From: a virus
IMG/VR virus record: IMGVR_UViG_3300025122_003874
Coordinates: 1 to 20,032 of that record
DNA: 20,032 nucleotides
Direction: 5' to 3' (one strand)
Part shown: one piece after another, positions 3 to 20,032 of the stretch
How positions within the stretch are numbered: the stretch's first letter is position 1
Layout of the letters: the number at the start of each line of letters is the position of its first letter
The notes under the pieces: model-generated
The model's input: the letters and a program-made list of their open reading frames with translations, nothing else
What the model was told of the DNA's origin: nothing
Database searches by the model: none
Position numbers and translations under genes: made by a program

Positions 3-1548
3 GCGAAAAAGAATACGGACAAGAAAAGCAACGGAGCAAACCTCGGCTTCGAGGCCACGCTATGGTTGGCCGCCGACAAGATGCGAAACAACTTAGACGC
101 GGCAGAATACAAGCATGTAGTCCTAGGCCTTATCTTCCTCAAGTACATCTCCGATGCCTTCGAGGAGCAGCATGAGAAGCTGGTCGCCGAGAAGAAGAAA
201 GGGGCCGATCCCGAAGACCCCGACGAGTACCGAGCGGTCAATGTGTTCTGGGTGCCCAAGGAGGCCCGATGGAGCCATCTCCAGGGCAACGCCAAGCAGC
301 CCACGATCGGAAAGACCGTCGACGATGCGATGGTCGCTATCGAGCGCGACAACAAGAGCCTCAAGGGAGTCCTGCCCAAGGACTTCGCCCGGCCCGGCCT
401 CGATAAACAGCGACTAGGAGAACTGATCGACCTGGTCGGCACCATCGGGCTTGGGGATAAGGAAAACCGCTCCAAGGACATCCTCGGACGCGTCTACGAG
501 TACTTCCTGGGTCGATTTGCCAGTGCCGAGGGGAAAAAGGGAGGACAGTTCTACACTCCCCGATGCGTGGTTCGGCTATTGGTCGAGATGCTCTCGCCTT
601 ACAAGGGACGAGTGTTTGACCCCTGCTGTGGCTCGGGGGGTATGTTCGTCCAGAGCGAGAAGTTCGTCGAGGCCCACGGTGGAAGGATCAACGACATCGC
701 TATCTTCGGGCAGGAGTCTAACCCGACAACGTGGCGATTGGCCAACATGAATCTCGCGATCCGCGGCATTGAAGTTCACCTAGGACCCGAACACGCCGAC
801 AGCTTCCACCGTGACCTGCACAAGGACCTCAAGGCCGACTACGTCCTGGCCAATCCACCGTTCAACGACAGCGACTGGCGTGGTGATCAACTACGCGACG
901 ATGTTCGTTGGAAGTACGGTGTTCCCCCTGTCGGGAACGCCAACTTTGCGTGGGTGCAGCACTTCCTCCACCACCTTGCCCCAAACGGAATGGCCGGGTT
1001 TGTCCTGGCCAATGGTTCGATGAGTTCGAACCAATCGGGTGAGGGTGACATTAGAAAGGCCATTATCGAAGCCGATCTTGTCGATTGCATGGTCGCCCTG
1101 CCCGGACAGCTCTTTTACTCAACCATGATACCGGCCTGTCTGTGGTTCCTATCGCGAAACAAGACGGAAAGTCGGTTTCGCGGTCGACGGGACGAGACGT
1201 TGTTCATTGATGCACGGAAGATGGGAACCCTCATTGACCGTGTCCACCGGGAGCTAACGGAGGAGGATATTGGGCGGATCGCTGGAACCTATCACGCCTG
1301 GCGAGGTGACAAGGGAGCCGGGAAGTACGTGGATGTCCCAGGATTTTGTATGAGTGCTGCAAAGGACAAGATCGTGGGTCACGGCTACGTTCTGACTCCA
1401 GGCCGGTACGTGGGGGCTGAGGAAGCAGAAGACGATGGAGAACCGTTTGAGGAGAAGATGCAGCGGCTCACGGTAAGGCTTCGCGGCCAGATGGCCGAGG
1501 GACGGAAGATCGACGACGCGATTGGGGCCAATCTGAAGGAGCTGGGAT

Positions 1549-1559
<11 letters not shown>
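3..1559 (+). CDS. hsdM: Type I restriction-modification DNA methyltransferase subunit HsdM (5' end off window)
   Basis: This is the M subunit of a type I restriction-modification complex. It transfers a methyl group from S-adenosylmethionine to adenine in the site chosen by HsdS. The frame is open from base 3 and reads A-K-K-N-T-D before the HsdM N-terminal helical domain (about 30-560). A TTG at 66 is an internal codon: the N-terminal family sequence G-F-E-A-T-L-W continues upstream of it, so the true ATG is probably one or two codons outside the window. The SAM-binding motif FDPCCGSGG lies near 614-640 and the catalytic NPPF at 852-863, both intact. About 518 residues are present, the normal family length. 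It overlaps hsdS by 11 bases, so the two are translationally coupled. I see no disruption. Identification is secure; the exact start is not visible. Confidence 0.96.
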
Positions 1560-2873
<1,314 letters not shown>

Positions 2874-2877
<4 letters not shown>

Positions 2878-5338: not shown

Positions 5339-7069
5339 ATGTATTCATTCAATAGGAATTCATCTAGTTCTACCAACAAGGCCAATTTTGGGCTATTGGC
5401 CGACACACCAAACGGCATCAGAAAACTTCGGGCAATGATCCTTCAGCTGGCAGTACGGGGGAAATTAGTTGAACAGAATCCCCAGGAAGAGCCTGTATCC
5501 GTACTGCTGGAGAGAATCAAAGCAGAAAAAGAAAGACTAATTGCTAGCGGCAAGCTCAGGAAAGAAATGCCGCTGCCACCAATTGAACCCAACGAGATAA
5601 TTTATCAACTTCCAGCCAGTTGGGAATGGGTGAGGATTGGTAATATTTTTCGAGTCGTTGGTGGTGGAACCCCCCGGACAAACGACAGCACTCTTTACGC
5701 CGAAAGAGATATTCCATGGCTCACTCCAGCTGATCTCTACGGATTTCGTGGCAAGTATGTTCAACAAGGACGCCGGGATATTTCTAAGGATGGACTCGCC
5801 AAGAGTTCTGCGCAATTGATGCCCGCAGGAAGCGTTCTCTTCTCAAGCAGAGCACCAATTGGTTACGTAGCCATAGCCGCAAATGAGGTTACAACAAACC
5901 AAGGTTTTAAATCATGCGTCCCCTATGTGGACGGGATGAGTGACTATATTTATCGCTACTTGCAACATGCCGCCGATGAAATCAACAATAATGCCAGTGG
6001 AACTACATTCAAGGAAATCTCGGGAAAGGAAATGAGATTTCTTTCCTTTCCTCTCCCTCCCCTCGCCGAACAAAAGCGTATCGTCGCAAAAGTAGACGAA
6101 CTGATGACTCTCTGCGATAAACTGGATGAAAGGAATAAGAAACGTGATGAAGTTCGTGTGAGAATGAACGGGGCATGCCTCCACACGCTCACTGCGCCCG
6201 TGATAGAGGTGTCCCGAAAGGGCTGGACCCGGATACGGGACCATTTCGACCTCCTCTACGATACTCCAGAAAACGTCGCCGCCCTGCGCCAGTCGATCCT
6301 CCAACTTGCCGTCATGGGCAGACTGGTCCCTCAGGACTCCAACGATGAACCCACCTCAGAGCTATTGAAGAAGATCGCCGCCGAAAAGGAGCGGCTTATT
6401 GCTGATAGGAGGATCAAGAAATCGAAGCACTTACCACAAATCGATCCTGATGAAGCACCATATAAGTTACCGAAGGGTTGGGAATGGGTAAGATTGGGAG
6501 ATCTCAGCACTCAGGTGGCTGACGGCCCTCACTTCTCGCCGAGTTACGTCCGGAGAAACGAAGGCGTCCCCTTCCTTTCTTCGCGCAACGTGTTTGTCGA
6601 CCGCTTTGAGTTGGATAGCGTTAAGTATGTATCAAAGGCTGATCACGAGGAGTTCTGTAAGCGAGTATGTCCGGAGCAAGGAGATATCCTTTACACGAAG
6701 GGAGGCACAACAGGGGTTGCAAGAGTTAACACCTTGGATTTCCAATTCAGTGTCTGGGTTCACTTAGCTGTGCTGAAATACCCTAAGGATTTAATTGTTC
6801 CAGAATACCTTGCAATGACCCTAAATTCACCACACTGTTATGCACAGTCGCAAATGTATACCCATGGCATTGGTAACAGGGATCTTGGACTCACCCGTAT
6901 GATTCTAATTACCCTGTCACTGCCCCCCTTGCCTGAACAAAGACGCATCGTCACCAAGATTAACCATGTCATGGGAGTGTGTGACGACCTCGAATCCAAA
7001 CTCCACCAGTCCCGCACCGACGGCGAAAGGCTGATGGAAGCCGTCGTCCATCACTTGGCCACCGCTTAG
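5339..7069 (+). CDS. hsdS: Orphan type I specificity subunit HsdS, different family from the first
   Basis: This is a full-length 576-residue HsdS with no HsdM or HsdR beside it. It is built from two similar halves. Each begins with a LRxxILQLAVxGxLV helix (near residues 30 and 317), then EPxSxLL, AEKERLIA and a LPxxWEWVRxGxL motif that opens each recognition domain. Each half ends in a PLPPLAEQKRIV or PLPEQRRIV motif and a coiled-coil helix. This is the long N-terminal-extension family, unlike the first HsdS at 1549. The ATG has no clear ribosome site. It could act with an HsdM elsewhere in the host and redirect its methylation, or it could be passive cargo. Both recognition domains look complete. 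Confidence 0.93.
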   Translation: MYSFNRNSSSSTNKANFGLLADTPNGIRKLRAMILQLAVRGKLVEQNPQEEPVSVLLERIKAEKERLIASGKLRKEMPLPPIEPNEIIYQLPASWEWVRIGNIFRVVGGGTPRTNDSTLYAERDIPWLTPADLYGFRGKYVQQGRRDISKDGLAKSSAQLMPAGSVLFSSRAPIGYVAIAANEVTTNQGFKSCVPYVDGMSDYIYRYLQHAADEINNNASGTTFKEISGKEMRFLSFPLPPLAEQKRIVAKVDELMTLCDKLDERNKKRDEVRVRMNGACLHTLTAPVIEVSRKGWTRIRDHFDLLYDTPENVAALRQSILQLAVMGRLVPQDSNDEPTSELLKKIAAEKERLIADRRIKKSKHLPQIDPDEAPYKLPKGWEWVRLGDLSTQVADGPHFSPSYVRRNEGVPFLSSRNVFVDRFELDSVKYVSKADHEEFCKRVCPEQGDILYTKGGTTGVARVNTLDFQFSVWVHLAVLKYPKDLIVPEYLAMTLNSPHCYAQSQMYTHGIGNRDLGLTRMILITLSLPPLPEQRRIVTKINHVMGVCDDLESKLHQSRTDGERLMEAVVHHLATA

Positions 7070-7150: not shown

Positions 7151-7708
7151 ATGAGTAACCATGGGTTCACTCCTTCTAAAATTTTCCTGACCAAGGGAGT
7201 CGGCAAACACCGAGAGAAGCTGGCCAGCTTTGAGATGGCCTTGCGTCACGCGGGGATCGCTCAATTCAACCTCGTGCGCGTCACCAGCATCCTTCCGGGC
7301 GACTGCAAGCTGATATCCCGAGAGGAGGGTCAGAAGTTCCTCACTCCTGGGCAGATTGTCTTTTGCGTGATTAGCGACAATGCGACTTGTGAACCCCATC
7401 GCCTCATTGCCGCTTCCGTTGGGGTGTCCATACCCAATGAACCCTCCCATTACGGATATCTCTCGGAGCACCACAGCTTCGGAGAAACCGAAGAAAAGGC
7501 GGGGGACTATGCCGAGGACCTGGCCGCATCCATGCTAGCCACGGTGCTGGGAGTGGAATTCGACCCCAACACGAGTTACGATGAACGCAAAGAGGTCTGG
7601 CGCTTGAGCCAAGAGATCGTCGTCACCCGCAACGTCACCCAATCCGCCATCGGCGACAAGGACGGGCTATGGACCAGCGTGGTGGCCGGGGCCATCTTTG
7701 CAAATTGA
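7151..7708 (+). CDS. pdaD: Pyruvoyl-dependent arginine decarboxylase (PdaD/AaxB family)
   Basis: The enzyme converts arginine to agmatine and CO2, the first step of one polyamine route and of some acid-resistance systems. The 185-residue proenzyme self-cleaves to create a pyruvoyl cofactor. Here the expected cleavage site is Thr45-Ser46 in LVRVTSILPGD. Archaeal enzymes have Ser-Ser; the Chlamydia enzyme has Thr-Ser, so this is the bacterial style. The conserved acid is probably Glu106 (YLSEHHS). Length fits the family, and no frameshift is visible. No ribosome site precedes the ATG. The neighbours are an orphan hsdS and phage regulators, with no other polyamine genes, so this looks like transferred cargo or a phage-borne metabolic gene. 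Confidence 0.93.
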   Translation: MSNHGFTPSKIFLTKGVGKHREKLASFEMALRHAGIAQFNLVRVTSILPGDCKLISREEGQKFLTPGQIVFCVISDNATCEPHRLIAASVGVSIPNEPSHYGYLSEHHSFGETEEKAGDYAEDLAASMLATVLGVEFDPNTSYDERKEVWRLSQEIVVTRNVTQSAIGDKDGLWTSVVAGAIFAN

Positions 7709-8033: not shown

Positions 8034-8219
8034 TTAGTGTAGCACCCAAGCGGGGAGCAGCGTTATAATCGCCTCCCTCGACGTTCCTGGGTGCTCGCCC
8101 CGACGACATCGCTGACAGACACCCTGGAAATAGCGGGGGTGCGGACACTCGCACCCCGCGAAAAACTGGCATCCGCAATCGCAACTGCAAGTGTGCCAAT
8201 GCGGGGGTGCCGTACTCAT
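8034..8219 (-). CDS. Cys-rich zinc-ribbon-like mini-protein
   Basis: This 61-residue protein has a dense metal-binding pattern: Cys at 11, 13, 15, 17, 23 and 25, then CQRC at 35-38 and His43. It resembles the small CxCGC...CxxC proteins often seen in phage genomes, which have no known function. The start overlaps the stop of the upstream HTH gene as ATGA, so translation is probably coupled. A longer overlapping minus-strand frame (up to 8313) lacks these signals. Metal binding is inferred from the cysteine spacing only. Confidence 0.62.
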   Translation of the reverse strand: MSTAPPHWHTCSCDCGCQFFAGCECPHPRYFQGVCQRCRRGEHPGTSREAIITLLPAWVLH

Positions 8220-8791
8220 AATTCCCCCTTGGTACGAGCATCTGCCAGCTCAATGCTGTACTGCTCCGCTCGGTCTCGTTCGTTCGCAGAGCAGGCGCAG
8301 TTATCCCTCTCATCCTCGTTTATAAATCGCTCGTCACAGTGTTGGCAAAACCACTCGCTGACCGAGCGAATCTGGAGACCATAGCACCACCGGCCATCGT
8401 CGAGAGTGAACTCGTATTGGCTCTTCTCTTCGTACAACACCTTGTTGTAGTTATTGATCTGATGGTCATCCCTGCCGATTTCGATCACTCTGGCGGTGCG
8501 GGACCACGGACTCTCGTTCAGGGGGGGGTCGATAGGCTGATACTCGACCTCGTCACCAACGTAAATCCATTTCGAATTAATCATTGTTTTTTCTCCTTTT
8601 TTTCTCATTAAGGCAGCTTCAGGCTGGTATACTCTCTCCTTGAGCCAACTCTCCAGTGCAGAAGGCTGGAATCTTAGTGCGCCACGCACCTTCATAAAGG
8701 GAATTGTCCGACGGGACACCCATACATAGATTGTTCCAGGTTGAACCCCCAACAGTTTTGCCACCGTTTTATGGTCAATCAATTGCTCCAT
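8216..8791 (-). CDS. Excisionase-type HTH protein fused to a second domain with a zinc knuckle
   Basis: Residues 1-55 form a winged HTH of the excisionase/MerR-like (HTH_17) class: LIDHKTVAKLLGVQPGTIYV, then the wing and SALESWLKER. Such proteins bind short DNA sites to control excision or transcription. From residue 70 a different domain begins (MINSKWIYVGDEVEY), ending in FCQHCDERFINEDERDNCAC, a likely Zn knuckle. AAGGAGG precedes the ATG by seven bases. A second perfect AAGGAG lies just before Met70 (ATG at 8584), next to an A7 run, so the two domains may be separate proteins in other copies (see findings). The stop overlaps the Cys-rich gene as ATGA. Expression is probably driven by the promoter at 8879-8906. 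Confidence 0.75.
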   Translation of the reverse strand: MEQLIDHKTVAKLLGVQPGTIYVWVSRRTIPFMKVRGALRFQPSALESWLKERVYQPEAALMRKKGEKTMINSKWIYVGDEVEYQPIDPPLNESPWSRTARVIEIGRDDHQINNYNKVLYEEKSQYEFTLDDGRWCYGLQIRSVSEWFCQHCDERFINEDERDNCACSANERDRAEQYSIELADARTKGEL

Positions 8792-11481: not shown

Positions 11482-11820
11482 ATGGCGGTATCGACAGAGA
11501 GATGGAGAAACGCAACGCTCACGATTGCGAATGCAGGGACAGAGACCGACGAACTGGATCTCCAGTTGAATGGTGCGAGGCGGCAGATGGTGATGAGCAT
11601 TCTCGCGCCGTCGGCACTCACCGGCACCGTCAAGGTTCAGGTAGCGGAGAAGGCCGGTGGGACGTACCGCGATCTCCAGAGCGGAGGATCGGATGTCAAT
11701 GTCACGGCTGGCAACTCAGTGACCATCGATCCGCTGATCGGGGGGGCGATGAAGCTAGTGTCCAGCGGGGCCGAGGGAGCGGAGAGAGCCTTCCACCTCC
11801 GAGGAAATGCTAAGAGCTAA
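11482..11820 (+). CDS. Small beta-rich phage protein before portal
   Basis: The 112 residues are rich in short beta-like segments (ATLTIANAGT, GTVKVQVAEK, NSVTIDPLIG) with many Gly, Ser and Thr, and there is no signal peptide. A small virion or head-associated protein is likely from its place: the stop overlaps the portal start as TAATG. A G-rich ribosome site (GGGGG) precedes the ATG. I cannot name the family. A decoration or head-completion role is a guess from position and composition. Confidence 0.7.
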   Translation: MAVSTERWRNATLTIANAGTETDELDLQLNGARRQMVMSILAPSALTGTVKVQVAEKAGGTYRDLQSGGSDVNVTAGNSVTIDPLIGGAMKLVSSGAEGAERAFHLRGNAKS

Positions 11821-13838
11821 TGGCTGATGAAATTGTAGCGGCAAGTAATCCGCAGGGCGGCGGGATACGAGAGACTGATCAGCCCACGGAGTCTAGGTTG
11901 GCTCATGGGACGAGCCTCCACCAGGAGATCATCTCGCGTCTGATCGCCCGGCGGCAACTGTCCGAGCGGGTGGTATCGAACCGAGCTGATGATTGGAACC
12001 GGGTAGATGAGCATCTGAGAATGTACATCGACCTGGGCCGACAGGCGAAGAAGGGCGATGCGTCGGTGGACCCTAACAAAAAGGAAATGCCTTGGGAGCG
12101 GTCAATCGTTGTCCCGCTGTCTTACGCCATCGAGCAGGTTCATAAGACTGAGCTGATGGGTATCTTTATGCGCCAGAACCCGATCCTGAAGGTGATGGGT
12201 ATCGGGCCCGAGGATGTCGAGCCAGCAAAGATGATGCAAGCGGTCCTGAGTTACGACCAGGAACAGACGGCGTTCCCTCTCCAGGTGTTTAGCGGTGTGG
12301 GTGACTCCATCCGGTACGGCCAGGGGACGTTCTATGTCAGCTTCGAGAGGGAGATGGGCTGGAAGCACTGGTCGGCACCGTCGAAGTTCCAGGCCATACT
12401 ACAGGCCATGAAGATGCCGACGGAGAGAAGGAGCTGGGAGACCCTCCGCGAGTACAGCCTCATCCATACCGTGGACCCGTTTCTGAGATGGCGTGATCCC
12501 CGCGTATCCATCGCCGATCTCCAGAATGGGGAGTTCACCGGTCACCGGGTCTACCGAGGGACGATGTGGATCAAGGAGCGCGACAAGAAAAACGGCGGGG
12601 TCTATTTCAATGTCGATAAGATCAGTAAGGGTGCAATTGGCGGGGCCAGGCAGACCTCCAGGGGCCGTGGGAGCTTCGGCAGGACGATCAATAAGTTCGA
12701 TACCTCCCGGTTCAGGATGACTGGGTCGGTGGACGAGCTGGATCACGGCTTCCATGCCATCGACCATCTCCAGGTGAAATTGATCCCCAAGGAATGGAAG
12801 CTTGGACCCGGTACCCTGCCAGAAATCTGGTGGTTCTCATGGATCGATGATCAGGTAATTATTCGGGCGCACCGCACCGAGTACCAACACGAGAAATTCA
12901 CTTACGCGGAGGCCGAGGCGCACCCAGATCCGCACGTTGGTGAGAACCCAGGATTGATTGAGAATCTCGATGGAATTCAGCGGTTTATGAACTGGATCTT
13001 CAACTCCCACATCCAGAACGTGATGCGGCACCTTAACAACTCCATGGTCTACGGGCCGAGCTTTGTGGAGGAAGCCGATCTGTTTGACCGCGATGCTGGG
13101 GGCCATTTCCGCCTCTCCCAGTTAGGGGAGCAAATGTTGATAGAGGGGCGGCTTTCCATCGATCAGATGATGCACCAGATGAACCTGTCCGACGTTACCC
13201 GGCCAATGCTGCAAGACAACAACGTGCTGATGGATATGGCTCTTAGAATGATGGCCGTATCGGAGACTAGTCAGGCTAGGGGTACCACTCAAAAACGCAC
13301 GCTAGGGGAGAATAAGCTCATTCAGGCGGGTGCTGGTAAGAGGATGGTACTTCACGCGGTCCTGTTCGATATTATGGCGTTCAATCCCATGGCCCGGCAG
13401 TTGATATCGAACCGCCAGCAATTCACCGAAATGGAGCAGTTTTTGAGGATTAGCGGGGATCTCGCCCGTGAGGTGGGTGAAACGTCCATGATGGTCCGCC
13501 CCGAGGACCTCCACGGGAACTTCGATTATGTGGGTAGATCGGCGGTCATGCCACCGGATGCCCAAGATCTCCCTGAAGTCTGGGACAGGATCGGAGCGCA
13601 ACTCTCCCAGAACCCGATGCTCCTTCAGCCACGGGCTGACGGCAAGATGCTCGACATCCATGAGCTGTTCAAGGAAGGCGTGGAGGCCACCGGGGTGCGT
13701 AACCTCGAATCGTTCTACAAAGATCCCCGCCAGATCCAGCAAATGCCCCAGGCACCCCCGGTAACGGTCCTTCCCGATGAGGAAGTGGCCCGGCAGCAAC
13801 AAGCGGGGGATATTATCCCGGCCAACGCGGCGGCATGA
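11820..13838 (+). CDS. Portal protein (head-to-tail connector)
   Basis: The portal forms the ring at the head vertex through which DNA enters and leaves, and docks the terminase and neck. At 672 residues it is in the size range of podovirus portals such as that of P22. It shows the mixed helical/beta layout with a long central region rich in Trp and Phe (IPKEWKLGPGTLPEIWWFSW near 321) and helical stretches after it. The C-terminus is Gln/Pro-rich and flexible. The ATG overlaps the preceding stop and lacks a ribosome site of its own. The capsid, scaffold and SU10-type adaptor downstream support the call. No single motif proves it. Confidence 0.82.
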   Translation: MADEIVAASNPQGGGIRETDQPTESRLAHGTSLHQEIISRLIARRQLSERVVSNRADDWNRVDEHLRMYIDLGRQAKKGDASVDPNKKEMPWERSIVVPLSYAIEQVHKTELMGIFMRQNPILKVMGIGPEDVEPAKMMQAVLSYDQEQTAFPLQVFSGVGDSIRYGQGTFYVSFEREMGWKHWSAPSKFQAILQAMKMPTERRSWETLREYSLIHTVDPFLRWRDPRVSIADLQNGEFTGHRVYRGTMWIKERDKKNGGVYFNVDKISKGAIGGARQTSRGRGSFGRTINKFDTSRFRMTGSVDELDHGFHAIDHLQVKLIPKEWKLGPGTLPEIWWFSWIDDQVIIRAHRTEYQHEKFTYAEAEAHPDPHVGENPGLIENLDGIQRFMNWIFNSHIQNVMRHLNNSMVYGPSFVEEADLFDRDAGGHFRLSQLGEQMLIEGRLSIDQMMHQMNLSDVTRPMLQDNNVLMDMALRMMAVSETSQARGTTQKRTLGENKLIQAGAGKRMVLHAVLFDIMAFNPMARQLISNRQQFTEMEQFLRISGDLAREVGETSMMVRPEDLHGNFDYVGRSAVMPPDAQDLPEVWDRIGAQLSQNPMLLQPRADGKMLDIHELFKEGVEATGVRNLESFYKDPRQIQQMPQAPPVTVLPDEEVARQQQAGDIIPANAAA

Positions 13839-14170: not shown

Positions 14171-14365
14171 ATGGAAAATCATTTATTAACCGTCGATCAA
14201 GTGGCGGCATACCTCCAGGTCCACCCTAAAACGATCTATAAATTCATGCGCGAAAAGGCGTTCCCGCGTGGCTCAAAAAGGTGGAATTGTCGGCGGTGGT
14301 ATCGATCCGAGATCGATGAATGGCTCAAGAATGACGAAAAAGTAGCCCACAGTAGCGCAGCGTAG
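14171..14365 (+). CDS. Excisionase-type HTH mini-protein inside structural genes
   Basis: The 64 residues are a single HTH_17 domain: LTVDQVAAYLQVHPKTIYKF followed by a basic wing (RGSKRWNCRRWY) and SEIDEWLKN. These proteins bind DNA as excisionases or small regulators. An AGAGG site precedes the ATG. It lies two bases after the coiled-coil gene and 204 bases before the scaffold gene, whose leader carries a long dyad. A regulator here is odd: it may control late genes, or be an insert. It is the third such HTH in the window. Confidence 0.8.
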   Translation: MENHLLTVDQVAAYLQVHPKTIYKFMREKAFPRGSKRWNCRRWYRSEIDEWLKNDEKVAHSSAA

Positions 14366-14569: not shown

Positions 14570-15568
14570 ATGGCAGAAGCAAAAGATAAAAACGCCCTAG
14601 TGGAACGTCTGAGCAGTCCACGGTTGCCAGCGAAGAAAACGCCAACACGGACTCCAGCCAAGGAGCCGACAGAGAACGCCGAGGTTCCGACCAGGCCGAC
14701 TGCACGGCGGACGCACCCACCTGAGTCCATCCCTGGACAACCAAATGAGCCCAGCACCGAAGTTATCCCAGCGGATGAGCGGTCAAAACCCGTCACTGAG
14801 TTCTACAAGGTCAACGGCCAGGAGTACACCCTCGATCAGTTAAAAGAGCAGGGGATGCTCCCCAAGCTCGTCACCACCTACGATCAGCACCAGCACCTCC
14901 AGAGCAAGTACCTCGATAACTTGAAGGAACTCGACGAGTTAAAGAAAGCCCCCGCGCAAGCACCGGCCCGACAGGCTTCGCCGGAGGAAATCTGGAAAAG
15001 CGTCAAGCAGCAATACGGCCCCTTGGTAAAGCAAGCGATCCAACGGGACATCGAAACCGGGGAGATGGAAGCCGATGTGGTGGAAATGTACCCGGAAACC
15101 ATCAACACGCTATACACCCGCCTTCTGTTCCAGGAAGGCAAGATTGAGGATCTGCGCCAAGCCGTGTGGGAACTTCAGCAAGCAACGTCCGGTGTAAGGC
15201 GGAAGGAAGTAAAGACTGAGATCGAGGATAAGATCGGCGCGCAACTCGATATCCTCGCGCCGAGTGACGAGGTTTACGGTTTGTTAAACGATGCAGATAC
15301 CAGGGAAGGTTTTATCGAGTACCTGTTCGACTTGAATCCCAGCTTGGATCAGGTCTCAGGTGATGTGGCCCAGGCGTTTTTAGCTAAGCAATGGTTTGCC
15401 TACAACGCAGATGCACTGAAAGCGGGGCGAGAGCCGAGCAGGGGTAGGGTACCCGCCCAATCCAATGTTAGCGGCGAGGGCCCATCATCTCGCCCTGGAA
15501 CGTACAGTTCCGGGGCGCCTTCGCACCTGGATCAACTCGCGTCGGCAATGCTTCCCGTACCAGAATAA
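14570..15568 (+). CDS. Probable capsid scaffolding protein
   Basis: The 332-residue protein lies just before the major capsid gene, the usual site for scaffold. The N-terminal third is disordered and rich in Pro, Thr and charged residues (TPTRTPAKEPTENAEVPTRP region, about 23-45). The middle is helical with acidic and basic stretches (LDNLKELDELKKAP, KTEIEDKIGAQLDI), and the C-terminus is Ser/Gly-rich. That disordered-helical-disordered build suits scaffolding proteins, which guide shell assembly and then leave. GAGAGG precedes the ATG. The call rests on position and composition, not on a motif. Confidence 0.65.
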   Translation: MAEAKDKNALVERLSSPRLPAKKTPTRTPAKEPTENAEVPTRPTARRTHPPESIPGQPNEPSTEVIPADERSKPVTEFYKVNGQEYTLDQLKEQGMLPKLVTTYDQHQHLQSKYLDNLKELDELKKAPAQAPARQASPEEIWKSVKQQYGPLVKQAIQRDIETGEMEADVVEMYPETINTLYTRLLFQEGKIEDLRQAVWELQQATSGVRRKEVKTEIEDKIGAQLDILAPSDEVYGLLNDADTREGFIEYLFDLNPSLDQVSGDVAQAFLAKQWFAYNADALKAGREPSRGRVPAQSNVSGEGPSSRPGTYSSGAPSHLDQLASAMLPVPE

Positions 15569-15580
15569 AGGAGAAAAACT

Positions 15581-16756
15581 ATGCCAGTATTGGGACTAAG
15601 AGGAACGGGCGATTTCTCAACCGATGAGAGGCCCAAAAATTATCGAGAACTTATCCTATTGCTGTTCCCTAACTCGCCGGTATCGATCACCGCTTTGCTC
15701 TCAAAGTTGAAGGTCGAAGCAACCGACGATCCAGAATTTACCATTTTTACCAAGGGCCTACCGACCCAAACAGCCAGCATTAGCGGGTCACACTCCGCAG
15801 CGATAACCACGCTCACCTTGAGCGGAACGAATCCCGGAAAAGTTTTTAGGAAGGGCCACACCATAATGAACGAGCGGTCGCTCGAAGTTATGTGGGTGAC
15901 TTCGGACCCGTCCGGGAGTTTTGATTCGTTGAGCGTAGCCAGGGGCAAAGGATCCACGGCGGCAACGATGAACGATGCCGACGTAGTGAGAATCGTCGGA
16001 TCGAGCCACCTGGAAGGTGCCAGTGTCCCAACGTCGATCACCTACGATCCCTCAACCACGCTGAACTACACGCAGATATTCAGAACGTCGCTCGACGTAA
16101 CGGGAACGCAGAAGGCCACGCATATCCGTACCGGGAACGACTACCTGGAGCGGCAACGTGAGGCCCTGGAGCTTCACGCCATTGAAAGAGAGATGGCCTA
16201 TATTTTCGGGACCGGAGTGGAGGACACTTCTGGAGTTCAACCGCAAAGAACAACCAAAGGATTCGTTTCCCTCGTCACAACCAATGTGACGGATTTCGCG
16301 GACGCAGTTGACATCGACACCTGGGAGACATTCTTGGAGGATTGTTTCGAGAACGGATCCAACGAGAAGCTGTTCCTGGCCGGTAACACGGCGATCACGG
16401 TTATCAACAAGATGGGCCGCATCCACGGCCAGATCGAGATGACCCCGCGCTCCGAGAGCTTCGGGATGCAGATGCAGACCTACATCACCCCGTATGGCAC
16501 GTTGCAGATTAGGCAACACGCACTGTTCTCCAAGAGTGCCACGTTTAAGGATTGGGGGCTGTTAATTGACCAGAAATATTTGGTCGACAGGCCGCTAATA
16601 GGTAACGGCGAGAACCGGGACACCCATTACAGGGAGAACGTCCAGAGTCCTGGGGATGACCGCGTGACAGACGAGTGGCTTACCGAGATCGGGCTGGAGC
16701 TCGAGCATGAGACCGTCCATGGGGTTGCCAAGAATATGTCCGCCCTGGTGCCGTAA
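15581..16756 (+). CDS. Major capsid protein, SU10-like (HK97 fold)
   Basis: The 391 residues match the pattern of the SU10-type (DUF5309) major capsid family. An N-terminal arm is followed by a beta-rich domain with Gly/Ser/Thr repeats, a YTQIFRTSLDVTGTQKA segment (about 164-180), a long helix beginning LERQREALELHAIEREMAYI (about 190-209), a GTGVED loop and a C-terminal region. A strong AAAGGAG precedes the ATG by seven bases, fitting high expression. It follows the probable scaffold by 12 bases. A hairpin lies 47 bases after the stop. Assigned from memory of the family. Confidence 0.85.
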   Translation: MPVLGLRGTGDFSTDERPKNYRELILLLFPNSPVSITALLSKLKVEATDDPEFTIFTKGLPTQTASISGSHSAAITTLTLSGTNPGKVFRKGHTIMNERSLEVMWVTSDPSGSFDSLSVARGKGSTAATMNDADVVRIVGSSHLEGASVPTSITYDPSTTLNYTQIFRTSLDVTGTQKATHIRTGNDYLERQREALELHAIEREMAYIFGTGVEDTSGVQPQRTTKGFVSLVTTNVTDFADAVDIDTWETFLEDCFENGSNEKLFLAGNTAITVINKMGRIHGQIEMTPRSESFGMQMQTYITPYGTLQIRQHALFSKSATFKDWGLLIDQKYLVDRPLIGNGENRDTHYRENVQSPGDDRVTDEWLTEIGLELEHETVHGVAKNMSALVP

Positions 16757-17723: not shown

Positions 17724-18146
17724 ATGAAACAACTCCGCGAGATAGGGATTGTCACGTTTTTTGTGGTGCTACTGAGCGGTTTGATTACCGGTACCCTTCT
17801 TATAGCTCAGACGAGCCTCCATGAGGTGCGCGGGGCATTGGACTTTGTGCAGTTCGATCCCCAGGTGAGGATCGCCGGGAACATGACCGTCGAAAAGAAA
17901 GACGGGACCGATCTGTTCGAGATGACCGACATTGGGGGATTCCACATCGTTGAAACGTCGGATGTGGCCGAGACCACGGACCTGAGTTCGGATGCCGAGG
18001 TTGCCCTTCTGACCTGTAACGATCAGTTCATCATCCAGTACAACAACGGGGGCGTACTTACCTACATGACGATTGACCTCGACGGCTCAGATACGAGTTG
18101 GGCGCAAAGCACAACCGCACCGACGGGTTGTAGCTTTAATCTGTGA
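17724..18146 (+). CDS. Putative exported or membrane-anchored protein
   Basis: The 140 residues begin with a basic start and a hydrophobic helix (IGIVTFFVVLLSGLITGTLL, residues 7-26), either a signal peptide with a possible site after AQT or a membrane anchor. The rest is polar and beta-rich (DLFEMTDIGGFHIVE), with one Cys near residue 100 and one near 136 that could form a disulfide. GGAG precedes the ATG. An exported protein within the head and neck genes is unusual; it may act in the host envelope during infection. Family not recognised. Confidence 0.6.
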   Translation: MKQLREIGIVTFFVVLLSGLITGTLLIAQTSLHEVRGALDFVQFDPQVRIAGNMTVEKKDGTDLFEMTDIGGFHIVETSDVAETTDLSSDAEVALLTCNDQFIIQYNNGGVLTYMTIDLDGSDTSWAQSTTAPTGCSFNL

Positions 18147-18343
18147 TCCGAAAAGAAGGTCACGGGTATAGGCTCTATTCGACCTCGAAACCTGGCCGGG
18201 CTTTGGGCCCGGTCAGGTTATCCAAGGAAGAAGTAGGGCGGAAAGATGAGAAGCGAGTGCAGTTCTTTAAGAACCTTGGGCACTCGAAAGGCGGACCCGG
18301 TAGTTTGAAGGCCAAGTTTCCCAAGAAAAGCCTCCTCAACTAA
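18143..18343 (+). CDS. Basic small protein of the YKLYSxxxGRxLG phage type
   Basis: The 66-residue protein starts at a GTG that overlaps the previous stop (GTGA). Its core, YRLYSTSKPGRALGPVRLSK, then RVQFFKNLGHSKGG, matches the pattern of a widespread small phage protein (Y-x-L/V-x-S, G-x-x-LG, x-V-x-FFK) of unknown function. The Lys-rich C-terminus could bind nucleic acid. A 13-bp hairpin (18189-18219) falls within the coding region. The pattern match makes this more than a chance frame. No ribosome site is seen, so it depends on coupling. Confidence 0.62.
   Translation: MIRKEGHGYRLYSTSKPGRALGPVRLSKEEVGRKDEKRVQFFKNLGHSKGGPGSLKAKFPKKSLLN
18189..18219 (+). repeat. Long hairpin inside a small coding region
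   Basis: AACCTGGCCGGGC (18189-18201) and GCCCGGTCAGGTT (18207-18219) form a 13-bp stem with one G-U pair and a TTTGG loop. It lies within the 66-residue gene. No T tract follows. It may slow translation or be an mRNA-processing site. Confidence 0.5.
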
Positions 18344-18344
18344 T

Positions 18345-18989
18345 GTGGCAAACACTACACTCACACTCCTACAAGCGGCAATGGGAAATTGGTTGGGTGA
18401 TGTTAATACCACCCGGCTACCCGACGCTATCCGCCTCGATTGCATCAACGCGGCAGTCCGGTTCTTCCTTCGCCAGTACGATCTGAGGTACGGCGAGATA
18501 ACTGACACCTTCGCCACCGTTGCCTCCACATACGATTACAGCGTCCCTACCGGCTGGTTACGACCCCATACCCTTTGGTACACCCATCCTACTAATAGCT
18601 CCACGGTAGTCCTGATTTACCGCGAGAAGGAAGCCTTCGACATTCTGTTCCCCGACCCCAGCAAAGAGGGCGTACCAACCTACTATACGGTGTGGGGTGC
18701 CAATATCCGGTTGGGAAAGACCCCGGATCAGGTTGTTACCCTCAATCGAAATTACTACGGGCTGCTCACCGACCTGGCCTCTGCCAGTGACACCAATGTG
18801 TTTACCGAAGATGCCTGGGAGGCGATCCTGTTCAAGGCCCTGGAGATCGCTTGTGAAGGTTACGGGATCAACGACAGGCGTTTGCCCCAATGGAAGATGC
18901 TTGCTCGTCAGTGGGGGGAGCAGTTGGTTACTTCTCATGCCCGTGCGAGGACGAGCGGGAGAAAGGCCCAGAGTTCGGAACCGGGATGA
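18345..18989 (+). CDS. Head-tail adaptor protein, SU10 type
   Basis: The 214-residue protein matches the SU10-type adaptor pattern. An N-terminal helix (TLLQAAMGNWLGD, then LPDAIRLDCINAAVRFFLRQ) is followed by YDYSVPTGWLRPHTLWYT and a beta-rich core, and a C-terminal helical region ends in a basic tail. Adaptors sit under the portal ring and join the tail or neck. It uses a GTG start at 18345, one base after the previous stop; the overlapping ATG at 18343 is in another frame. The stop overlaps the next gene as ATGA. Together with the capsid protein it supports an SU10-like virion. Confidence 0.8.
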   Translation: MANTTLTLLQAAMGNWLGDVNTTRLPDAIRLDCINAAVRFFLRQYDLRYGEITDTFATVASTYDYSVPTGWLRPHTLWYTHPTNSSTVVLIYREKEAFDILFPDPSKEGVPTYYTVWGANIRLGKTPDQVVTLNRNYYGLLTDLASASDTNVFTEDAWEAILFKALEIACEGYGINDRRLPQWKMLARQWGEQLVTSHARARTSGRKAQSSEPG

Positions 18990-19255
18990 GATCACAAATA
19001 ATTATGGCAATGCTCTTGGCTTGGTTCCTGTTCTCCATAGAGGAAGGAAAAGAGTACGTTCTCAAAATCCCATTCAACAGGCTGGAATGTGAGTTCAGTA
19101 AGGACTTCCACCAACGGTATATCCCGTGGAATTGGTATGAATGCATTAATTTAGGTCTCGGAATCACCAAGGAGGAGGAGACATACCGAGCACTCCAAGG
19201 GTTAATTGCGGATGGCGTACAAGACGCTAAAGGCGGGAGGGAAGGATCAAAATGA
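18986..19255 (+). CDS. Putative small exported protein
   Basis: The 89 residues begin with a hydrophobic helix (MRSQIIMAMLLAWFLFSIEE) that could be a signal peptide or anchor. Two cysteines follow in the polar rest (LECEF and YECIN). The start overlaps the adaptor stop as ATGA, and its stop overlaps the next gene as ATGA. A longer upstream in-frame extension overlaps the adaptor and is shadow. The family is not recognised. Its link with the O-antigen ligase-like gene suggests a shared role at the envelope. Confidence 0.55.
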   Translation: MRSQIIMAMLLAWFLFSIEEGKEYVLKIPFNRLECEFSKDFHQRYIPWNWYECINLGLGITKEEETYRALQGLIADGVQDAKGGREGSK

Positions 19256-20032
19256 TTTTCCCCCCTCTCGCTATTGCCAGCTTGCTCCTGTTCTACACCG
19301 GGATCGTGAATGGGTATGAGTTACCTAAACTTCTGTTTGTCGGGCTGCTTGTAATCTTCGGACTTGGTTACCTGCTAGAATCCAAAAAAGTTTCTCTCCC
19401 GTGCCAGTATCCGATTGCCTTGTTCTTCGCGGGGTCCGTACTGTCGGCCTGGGGGGCGCTGAACCACTACGAGCTGGTGTTGGCGTTGTCCTTGGATCTG
19501 ATGGGGATCTCCCTTTTCTGGATAATCGTCAACGCGGTCAAACCCATGGCCATGGAGGGAATCCTGTGGGGTCTGTCGATGATTGGGGCAACCATAGCCC
19601 TGTTCTTCATATTCCTACCCGGCGATCAGGGATCGATTGGCAACTCCGCACTGGCGGGTATCTTCATGGTGCCGCTTATTCCCATCGCGGTTTACCTGGC
19701 ACCGTGGGGGTTGATCCCCGCCGCGATAATCGGAGCCGGGATTTACGTCACGAACTCCCATGCGGCGTTCCTTGGTGGCCTAGTGATCGTGGCCGTGGTG
19801 ATCTGGCGAAACGCGGCGGTGTGTCCCAAGACGCTTGCCATCATTCCAACCGTGATCGCCTCCCTGCTTATCTTGAAGATGGGGATCGGCGCGGACACTT
19901 CCATACGGTACCGGCTTGATTGGTGGAGAAACAGCGCCTACATGGTTGCCGACCATCCGGTGTTCGGTATAGGGCGCGGCAACTATGTCGTGGTTTATCC
20001 TCAGTATGCCATCCTGGGGGACCGGGTGATGC
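19252..20032 (+). CDS. O-antigen ligase/polymerase-like membrane protein (3' end off window)
   Basis: The visible 260 residues hold about eight hydrophobic segments (FPPLAIASLLLFYTGIVNG at the N-terminus, for example) followed by a periplasmic-type loop. From Arg219, RYRLDWWRNSAYMVADHPVF then GIGRGNYVVVYPQY matches the Wzy_C signature of O-antigen ligase and polymerase proteins (WaaL/Wzy superfamily), which join sugar chains or attach them to lipid A. In a phage, such a gene could change the host surface and exclude other phages. The ATG overlaps the previous stop (ATGA). The C-terminus is beyond the window. Confidence 0.85.
   Translation, partial: MIFPPLAIASLLLFYTGIVNGYELPKLLFVGLLVIFGLGYLLESKKVSLPCQYPIALFFAGSVLSAWGALNHYELVLALSLDLMGISLFWIIVNAVKPMAMEGILWGLSMIGATIALFFIFLPGDQGSIGNSALAGIFMVPLIPIAVYLAPWGLIPAAIIGAGIYVTNSHAAFLGGLVIVAVVIWRNAAVCPKTLAIIPTVIASLLILKMGIGADTSIRYRLDWWRNSAYMVADHPVFGIGRGNYVVVYPQYAILGDRVM

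Follow-up and report, generated by a model that had tools for sequence, protein, structure and literature searches.

A predicted Wzy_C-family glycan transferase gene and a TPR partner gene between the adaptor and fibre genes of an uncultured SU10-like phage

Introduction

Enzymes of the Wzy_C family, such as WaaL, PglL and Wzy, transfer lipid-diphosphate-linked glycans at the outer face of the inner membrane. In the Pseudomonas phage D3, an inhibitor of the host polymerase is encoded beside the Wzy-beta gene. The Wzy-beta proteins of D3 and of the Salmonella phage epsilon15 contain Wzy_C and change the host O-antigen, and that of epsilon15 works beside a host-polymerase inhibitor (PMC4815439).

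Here we describe a Wzy_C gene in a different setting, namely the virion operon of an uncultured phage that, judged by its genes, is an SU10-like short-tailed phage of the podovirus type. The stretch of DNA analysed, hereafter the window, is the entire IMG/VR record IMGVR_UViG_3300025122_003874, with a length of 20,032 bases. A protein scan recovered a second contig of the same genome, 3300025122_003386 (L007), which overlaps the window at both ends.

Results

The virion operon encoded by the window and L007 includes the following features.

Window 11820-13838: portal (Pfam portal family, 1.5e-5, under its cut-off)
Window 14570-15568: scaffold-like gene
Window 15581..16756, plus strand: major capsid protein of the SU10 type, which anchors the phage family (Pfam SU10_MCP, 2.5e-40)
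Window 17724..18146, plus strand: 140-aa protein whose N-terminus is strongly hydrophobic and may be a signal or an anchor (15-residue hydropathy 2.7)
Window 18143..18343, plus strand: conserved 66-aa ORF between the 140-aa gene and the adaptor
Window 18345..18989, plus strand: adaptor (neck) gene (Pfam SU10_adaptor, E=5.7e-17; phrog_2941, 4.5e-10)
Window 18986..19255, plus strand: small 89-aa protein, first gene of the inserted block, with a hydrophobic N-terminus and two conserved Cys
Window 19252..20032, plus strand: predicted membrane glycan transferase of the Wzy_C family; the record stops after codon 260 of about 382
L007 1-532: remainder of the Wzy_C gene
L007 459-899: TPR gene
L007 850-2583: fibre gene with leader, 577 aa
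L007 2585-4126: nozzle-type gene, 513 aa (phrog_3287, 1.8e-22)

The window stops inside the Wzy_C gene, which by itself could point to an assembly artefact or to host polysaccharide DNA at the contig end, the latter a concern raised by the first-pass annotation. The first 164 nt of L007 match the last 164 of the window at 163 positions, and its last 127 nt are identical to the first 127 of the window (127/127); the two contigs therefore form a circle of about 38.7 kb. Beyond the window end, the full enzyme gene was recovered in L007, followed by the TPR, fibre and nozzle genes and further virion genes, and thus the right side is not host DNA. In addition, a related lineage (L011) holds the whole arrangement on a single 30-kb contig, and the arrangement recurs in four other near-identical contigs. 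An artefact is hence barely conceivable, and host DNA at the contig end was dropped as ruled out by the L007 overlap. A tRNA scan for hints of the host returned none. The TPR partner, the fibre leader and the insertion status escaped the first-pass annotation because the window ends before them.

The block was found in the window phage (window and L007) and in two further lineages (L011, and L012 together with L018), so that the adaptor, small-protein and enzyme genes predicted to travel together as a phage module do recur in relatives and continue into tail genes. The third lineage keeps the arrangement, TPR gene included, with 57% identity in the enzyme. Across the three lineages, identities are 90-94% for the adaptor, 57-89% for the enzyme and 41-66% for the small protein. 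Against L012 the values are 90% for the adaptor, 94% for the capsid, 57-58% for the enzyme and 41-45% for the small protein; the capsid is likewise 94% identical in L011. The 66-aa ORF shows 92% identity in L011 and 81% over 42 residues in L012.

In relatives with 48-58% capsid identity (L026, L027, L029 and L079), a fibre-like gene comes immediately after the adaptor, with the nozzle gene next, and no Wzy_C was detected in these four. Since they run directly from adaptor to fibre, gene-order comparison indicates that the block, roughly 1.9-2.1 kb long, was inserted at this junction and is specific to the lineage. The small protein is absent from relatives outside the three lineages. The 140-aa protein upstream of the adaptor is also confined to this clade (present in three lineages and in no more distant relative), and is possibly a member of the same exported set as the inserted block. 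Among 59 more distant records, none has Wzy_C at the adaptor-fibre position, and only one, G017, has it elsewhere in the genome. The enzyme has no PHROG match and no tblastn match among 50,697 phage records, and a literature search found no paper describing an adaptor-Wzy_C-TPR-fibre arrangement. The suggestion that this is an undescribed module fits these searches.

Comparisons of window/L007 with L011 gave dN/dS values of 0.10-0.18 for the enzyme, 0.19 for the TPR gene, 0.29 for the small protein and 0.20 for the fibre, versus 0.04-0.08 for the capsid, adaptor and nozzle genes. The ratios are quoted where dS was unsaturated, as dS was saturated in several comparisons with L012. The adaptor, small protein and enzyme are thus kept beyond chance, judging from their presence in three lineages and from dN/dS well under 1 where dS could be estimated, and the block is maintained by purifying selection but evolves more quickly than the core genes of the virion, a pattern that fits host-facing genes.

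The ATGA overlaps described earlier were both seen, between adaptor and small protein at 18986 and between small protein and enzyme at 19252. ATGA overlaps and overlaps of 1-74 nt are the rule throughout this virion operon; the ATGA overlap alone is therefore no sign of special coupling, and we dropped any special meaning for it. The adaptor/small-protein overlap is kept in all three lineages, while that between small protein and enzyme is not conserved, with an extra ORF between the two genes in L011 and a different spacing in L012. The extra ORF (L011:10868-11134) encodes an 88-aa zinc-ribbon-like protein with CxxC pairs. In L012, a stretch joined in frame to the front of the enzyme may be what is left of this ORF (VKINYHGQEYPAVK). 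Terminator-like signals showed no excess between adaptor and enzyme.

The block might also be moron cargo that serves a lysogen or carrier cell, as in classical seroconversion, with a chance seat in the virion operon and a benefit to the host rather than to the lytic cycle. The characterised phage Wzy proteins in PMC4815439 and PMC9241936 are all from temperate phages or prophages. G014, the closest relative outside the clade, carries a tyrosine integrase, and excisionase-like HTH_17 proteins are encoded in the window. These points are met by a position within an uninterrupted virion operon, by the lack of any promoter above chance ahead of the block, and by the absence of a tyrosine integrase (PF00589) from the two contigs that close the genome, and we regard moron cargo as rather improbable.

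Several other genes of the phage were recorded. HsdM, HsdS and a second, two-domain HsdS are encoded at window 3-2877 and 5339-7069, the second HsdS lying between the terminase and portal genes; no HsdR was seen within the window, and neither the HsdM nor the HsdS genes had a match in the available sequences of the sister lineages. The HsdM start in the window overlaps the end of contig L022, which belongs to the same phage and encodes a sigma-70 region 4 protein (L022:8002-8445) that might steer late transcription. A pyruvoyl-dependent arginine decarboxylase (window 7151-7708; PvlArgDC, 1e-57), also located between terminase and portal, was not found in the available sequences of L011 and L012. 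HTH_17/AlpA-like small DNA-binding proteins are encoded at window 14171-14365 and 8216-8791 (minus strand), one of them between the portal and scaffold genes.

The annotation of the enzyme as an O-antigen ligase/polymerase with a Wzy_C signature was borne out at the level of the superfamily. The truncated copy in the window scores 33.7 bits against Pfam Wzy_C (PF04932; E=3.7e-8), above the curated cut-off of 31.7 bits; full-length copies in relatives reach 51-60 bits (60.0 and 51.4), and all four tested records that carry the gene exceed the cut-off. The enzyme has 11 hydrophobic segments in a sequence-based prediction and an intact HX10G spacing (H281-X10-G292), and it conforms to the superfamily in being a predicted polytopic protein with a large, predicted periplasmic loop that bears the His and HX10G. 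The record ends before the active-site His, which is present in L007 (HNDYL), L011 and L012. PglL_A (PF15864) and Wzy_C_2 were not matched in the enzyme, in which only Wzy_C and one sub-threshold DUF match appeared at E<=0.1. An AlphaFold model of the enzyme, built from four phage sequences, was poor (pLDDT 41), and a PDB sequence search with the enzyme profile gave no match.

Residues were aligned to E. coli K-12 WaaL, in whose sequence R215, R288 and H338 were verified. WaaL R288 and H338 align with phage R221 and H281, whereas the R215 equivalent is His (H170) in all three lineages, so that two of the three catalytic residues are kept. This fixed substitution raises the possibility that the protein has lost its transferase activity and instead, from within the membrane, obstructs the host ligase or polymerase, or DNA entry. 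The equivalents of R288 and H338 and the HX10G spacing are retained, however, and Lys stands at the R215 position in two cellular relatives, L169 and L171, which indicates that the site tolerates change. Loss of activity is accordingly a quite improbable explanation.

The TPR gene is a separate gene with a GTG start, in the +1 frame and overlapping the enzyme gene by 74 nt. As the frames differ by +1, a programmed frameshift joining enzyme and TPR was considered and set aside, with no supporting site. The TPR protein is N-terminally hydrophobic, with a transmembrane segment that precedes the TPR. A scan of genome contigs with the enzyme sequence found no relative; a later profile search of phylum samples found some. 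These cellular relatives came from sampled genomes of three phyla, those of the loci titled Planctomycetota, Acidobacteria and Anaerolineaceae. In 398 genomes from the phylum of G068 (locus titled Sphingomonadales), a search made with no positive control returned no relative of the enzyme at 1e-10. The best-scoring cellular relatives found with the enzyme profile in the sampled genomes are Wzy_C-TPR proteins (L171, 70 bits; L167, 61 bits), which are fusions of 743 and 824 aa, respectively, with the TPR confirmed by Pfam.

The phage pair follows the order Wzy_C, transmembrane helix, TPR, as do the cellular Wzy_C-TPR proteins L171, L167, L170 and L173 from the sampled Acidobacteriota and Planctomycetota genomes. 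The cellular proteins are encoded by one fused gene of 600-1100 codons and bear the motif SR, SK or AK, in contrast to the two overlapping genes and the SH motif of the phage. The Wzy_C-TPR type, with the TPR C-terminal to Wzy_C in one polypeptide, is therefore not what the phage encodes; in the phage, such a cellular protein seems to be divided between the enzyme gene and the TPR gene.

The claim that the small protein is exported is weakly supported. In its favour are an N-terminus that is hydrophobic over a short stretch and the conserved residues C35 and C53, but no clear signal cleavage site was found. Its AlphaFold model was poor (pLDDT 53).

The fibre that follows the block, known from two lineages only, opens with a hydrophobic leader of 34-38 residues (hydropathy 2.6-2.7) with a cleavage-like end, VHAAS. 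The fibre N-terminus of relatives, MALPxQLKSARMT..IDNKVxExEQAL, aligns with the fibre of the window clade directly after the leader, which thus sits exactly before the ancestral start QLKxARMT. An AGGAGG lies 6 nt upstream of the leader ATG in both lineages seen, and the leader has a dN/dS of about 0.4 over 36 codons. No such leader is present in the relatives L026, L027, L029 and L079. In SU10, the adaptor is the docking site of the long-fibre protein (PMC9509320), and by analogy the conserved fibre start is probably the docking end. The unrelated phages L164 and L153, found as fibre homologues, share repeats and have no block, and were rejected. A 793-aa fibre-like protein of one of them (L153:2772-5153) also opens with a signal-like hydrophobic segment (MEGKVGLTWKKVVLALGILFTFSGILYGA), and phage fibres with such leaders may occur more widely.

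The leader bears on the main rival to surface alteration, glycosylation of exported phage proteins. The enzyme could be a protein O-oligosaccharyltransferase, with the TPR protein presenting the leader-bearing fibre for trimming and glycosylation in the periplasm. The fibre would then be added to particles at lysis or remain at the surface of the infected cell. Several features are consistent with such a role: the leader occurs in this clade alone, immediately before the conserved adaptor-proximal start and with its cleavage-like end and AGGAGG site; the fibre gene overlaps the TPR gene; the 140-aa, small and TPR proteins of the same stretch are N-terminally hydrophobic as well; and PglL genes often adjoin the gene of their substrate (PMC3643930). 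However, the cytoplasm is the normal place of tail assembly, and fibres would here have to assemble outside it. The lack of a detectable PglL_A motif, the fibre-like genes of G017, which follow Wzy_C without such a leader, and the observation of the fibre in only two lineages also count against this role, which we consider unlikely, though a serious contender. The fuller proposal, that the phage exports its own tail fibre or fibre-like protein by a newly gained signal peptide and that the Wzy_C/TPR pair O-glycosylates it in the periplasm before it joins particles at lysis or remains on the surface, is less probable still.

A second SU10-like phage carries glycan genes among its virion genes. 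G017 is a 46-kb contig with 43% capsid identity over the best segment, and encodes Wzy_C (353 aa), an FkbM methyltransferase and a UDP-glucose/GDP-mannose dehydrogenase-like gene (L156:6104-9045), located between ejection-protein and fibre-like genes, with HNH-type ORFs nearby. It had no close relatives in IMG/VR or the phage records, and a scan of viral contigs with its enzyme returned only itself. From the gene content of G017, glycan remodelling seems to recur as a late trait.

Discussion

Guided by the analogy of D3, epsilon15 (PMC4815439) and G017, we tentatively favour, with a confidence just short of calling it probable, that the block encodes a late, periplasm-facing glycan transferase that changes the surface of the infected cell. 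In this reading, the DNA that an SU10-like lineage has acquired between adaptor and fibre in its virion operon encodes a small membrane or exported protein, an inner-membrane Wzy_C enzyme with a predicted periplasmic active-site loop, and a TPR protein anchored in the membrane. The block would be late if, as contiguity suggests, it is transcribed together with the neck and tail genes. In the periplasm, the enzyme may accept a host glycan linked to lipid diphosphate and, as ligase or polymerase, join it to an acceptor in a manner unlike the host enzyme, with the TPR partner holding the acceptor or a partner protein. As with Iap in D3 and epsilon15, the small protein may hold the host enzyme in check. 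The surface polysaccharide of the infected cell would thereby be altered, such that further phages and released progeny bind less. Three points weigh against a surface change: the His at the R215 position in three lineages, by which activity may differ or be lost; the absence of any other glycan gene beside the enzyme in the window clade; and the fibre leader, which is left unexplained.

A Wzy_C gene fixed in a virion operon, with a TPR partner, an exported-looking fibre and no tyrosine integrase found, suggests that surface glycans change in the productive cycle, and the independent case of G017 suggests that the window lineage is not unique. The block offers concrete genes through which lytic infection may alter the cell surface.

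Compared with described systems, the locus shares with D3 and epsilon15 a phage-borne Wzy_C membrane enzyme, here preceded by a small hydrophobic protein, a putative functional counterpart of the inhibitor Iap. D3 and epsilon15 are temperate and their Wzy acts in lysogens, whereas here the gene lies between adaptor and fibre in a genome with no tyrosine integrase found, and has a TPR partner. The phage enzyme resembles E. coli WaaL, the ligase that joins O-antigen to lipid A-core, in its Wzy_C region and in the R288 and H338 equivalents, and differs in the R215 to His change, an identity of only 14%, a position outside any LPS locus and the TPR partner. PglL and PglS also belong to the Wzy_C family, have an extra C-terminal periplasmic domain and, for PglL, are often encoded beside their target, but the phage enzyme matches neither PglL_A nor Wzy_C_2. 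SU10 (PMC9509320) and the relatives L026, L027, L029 and L079 have the same order of capsid, adaptor, fibre and nozzle genes as the window phage, and these four relatives, unlike it, have neither the block nor the fibre leader. Phage Wzy_C enzymes are known already; what is new is the position in the virion operon, the split TPR partner and the fibre leader.
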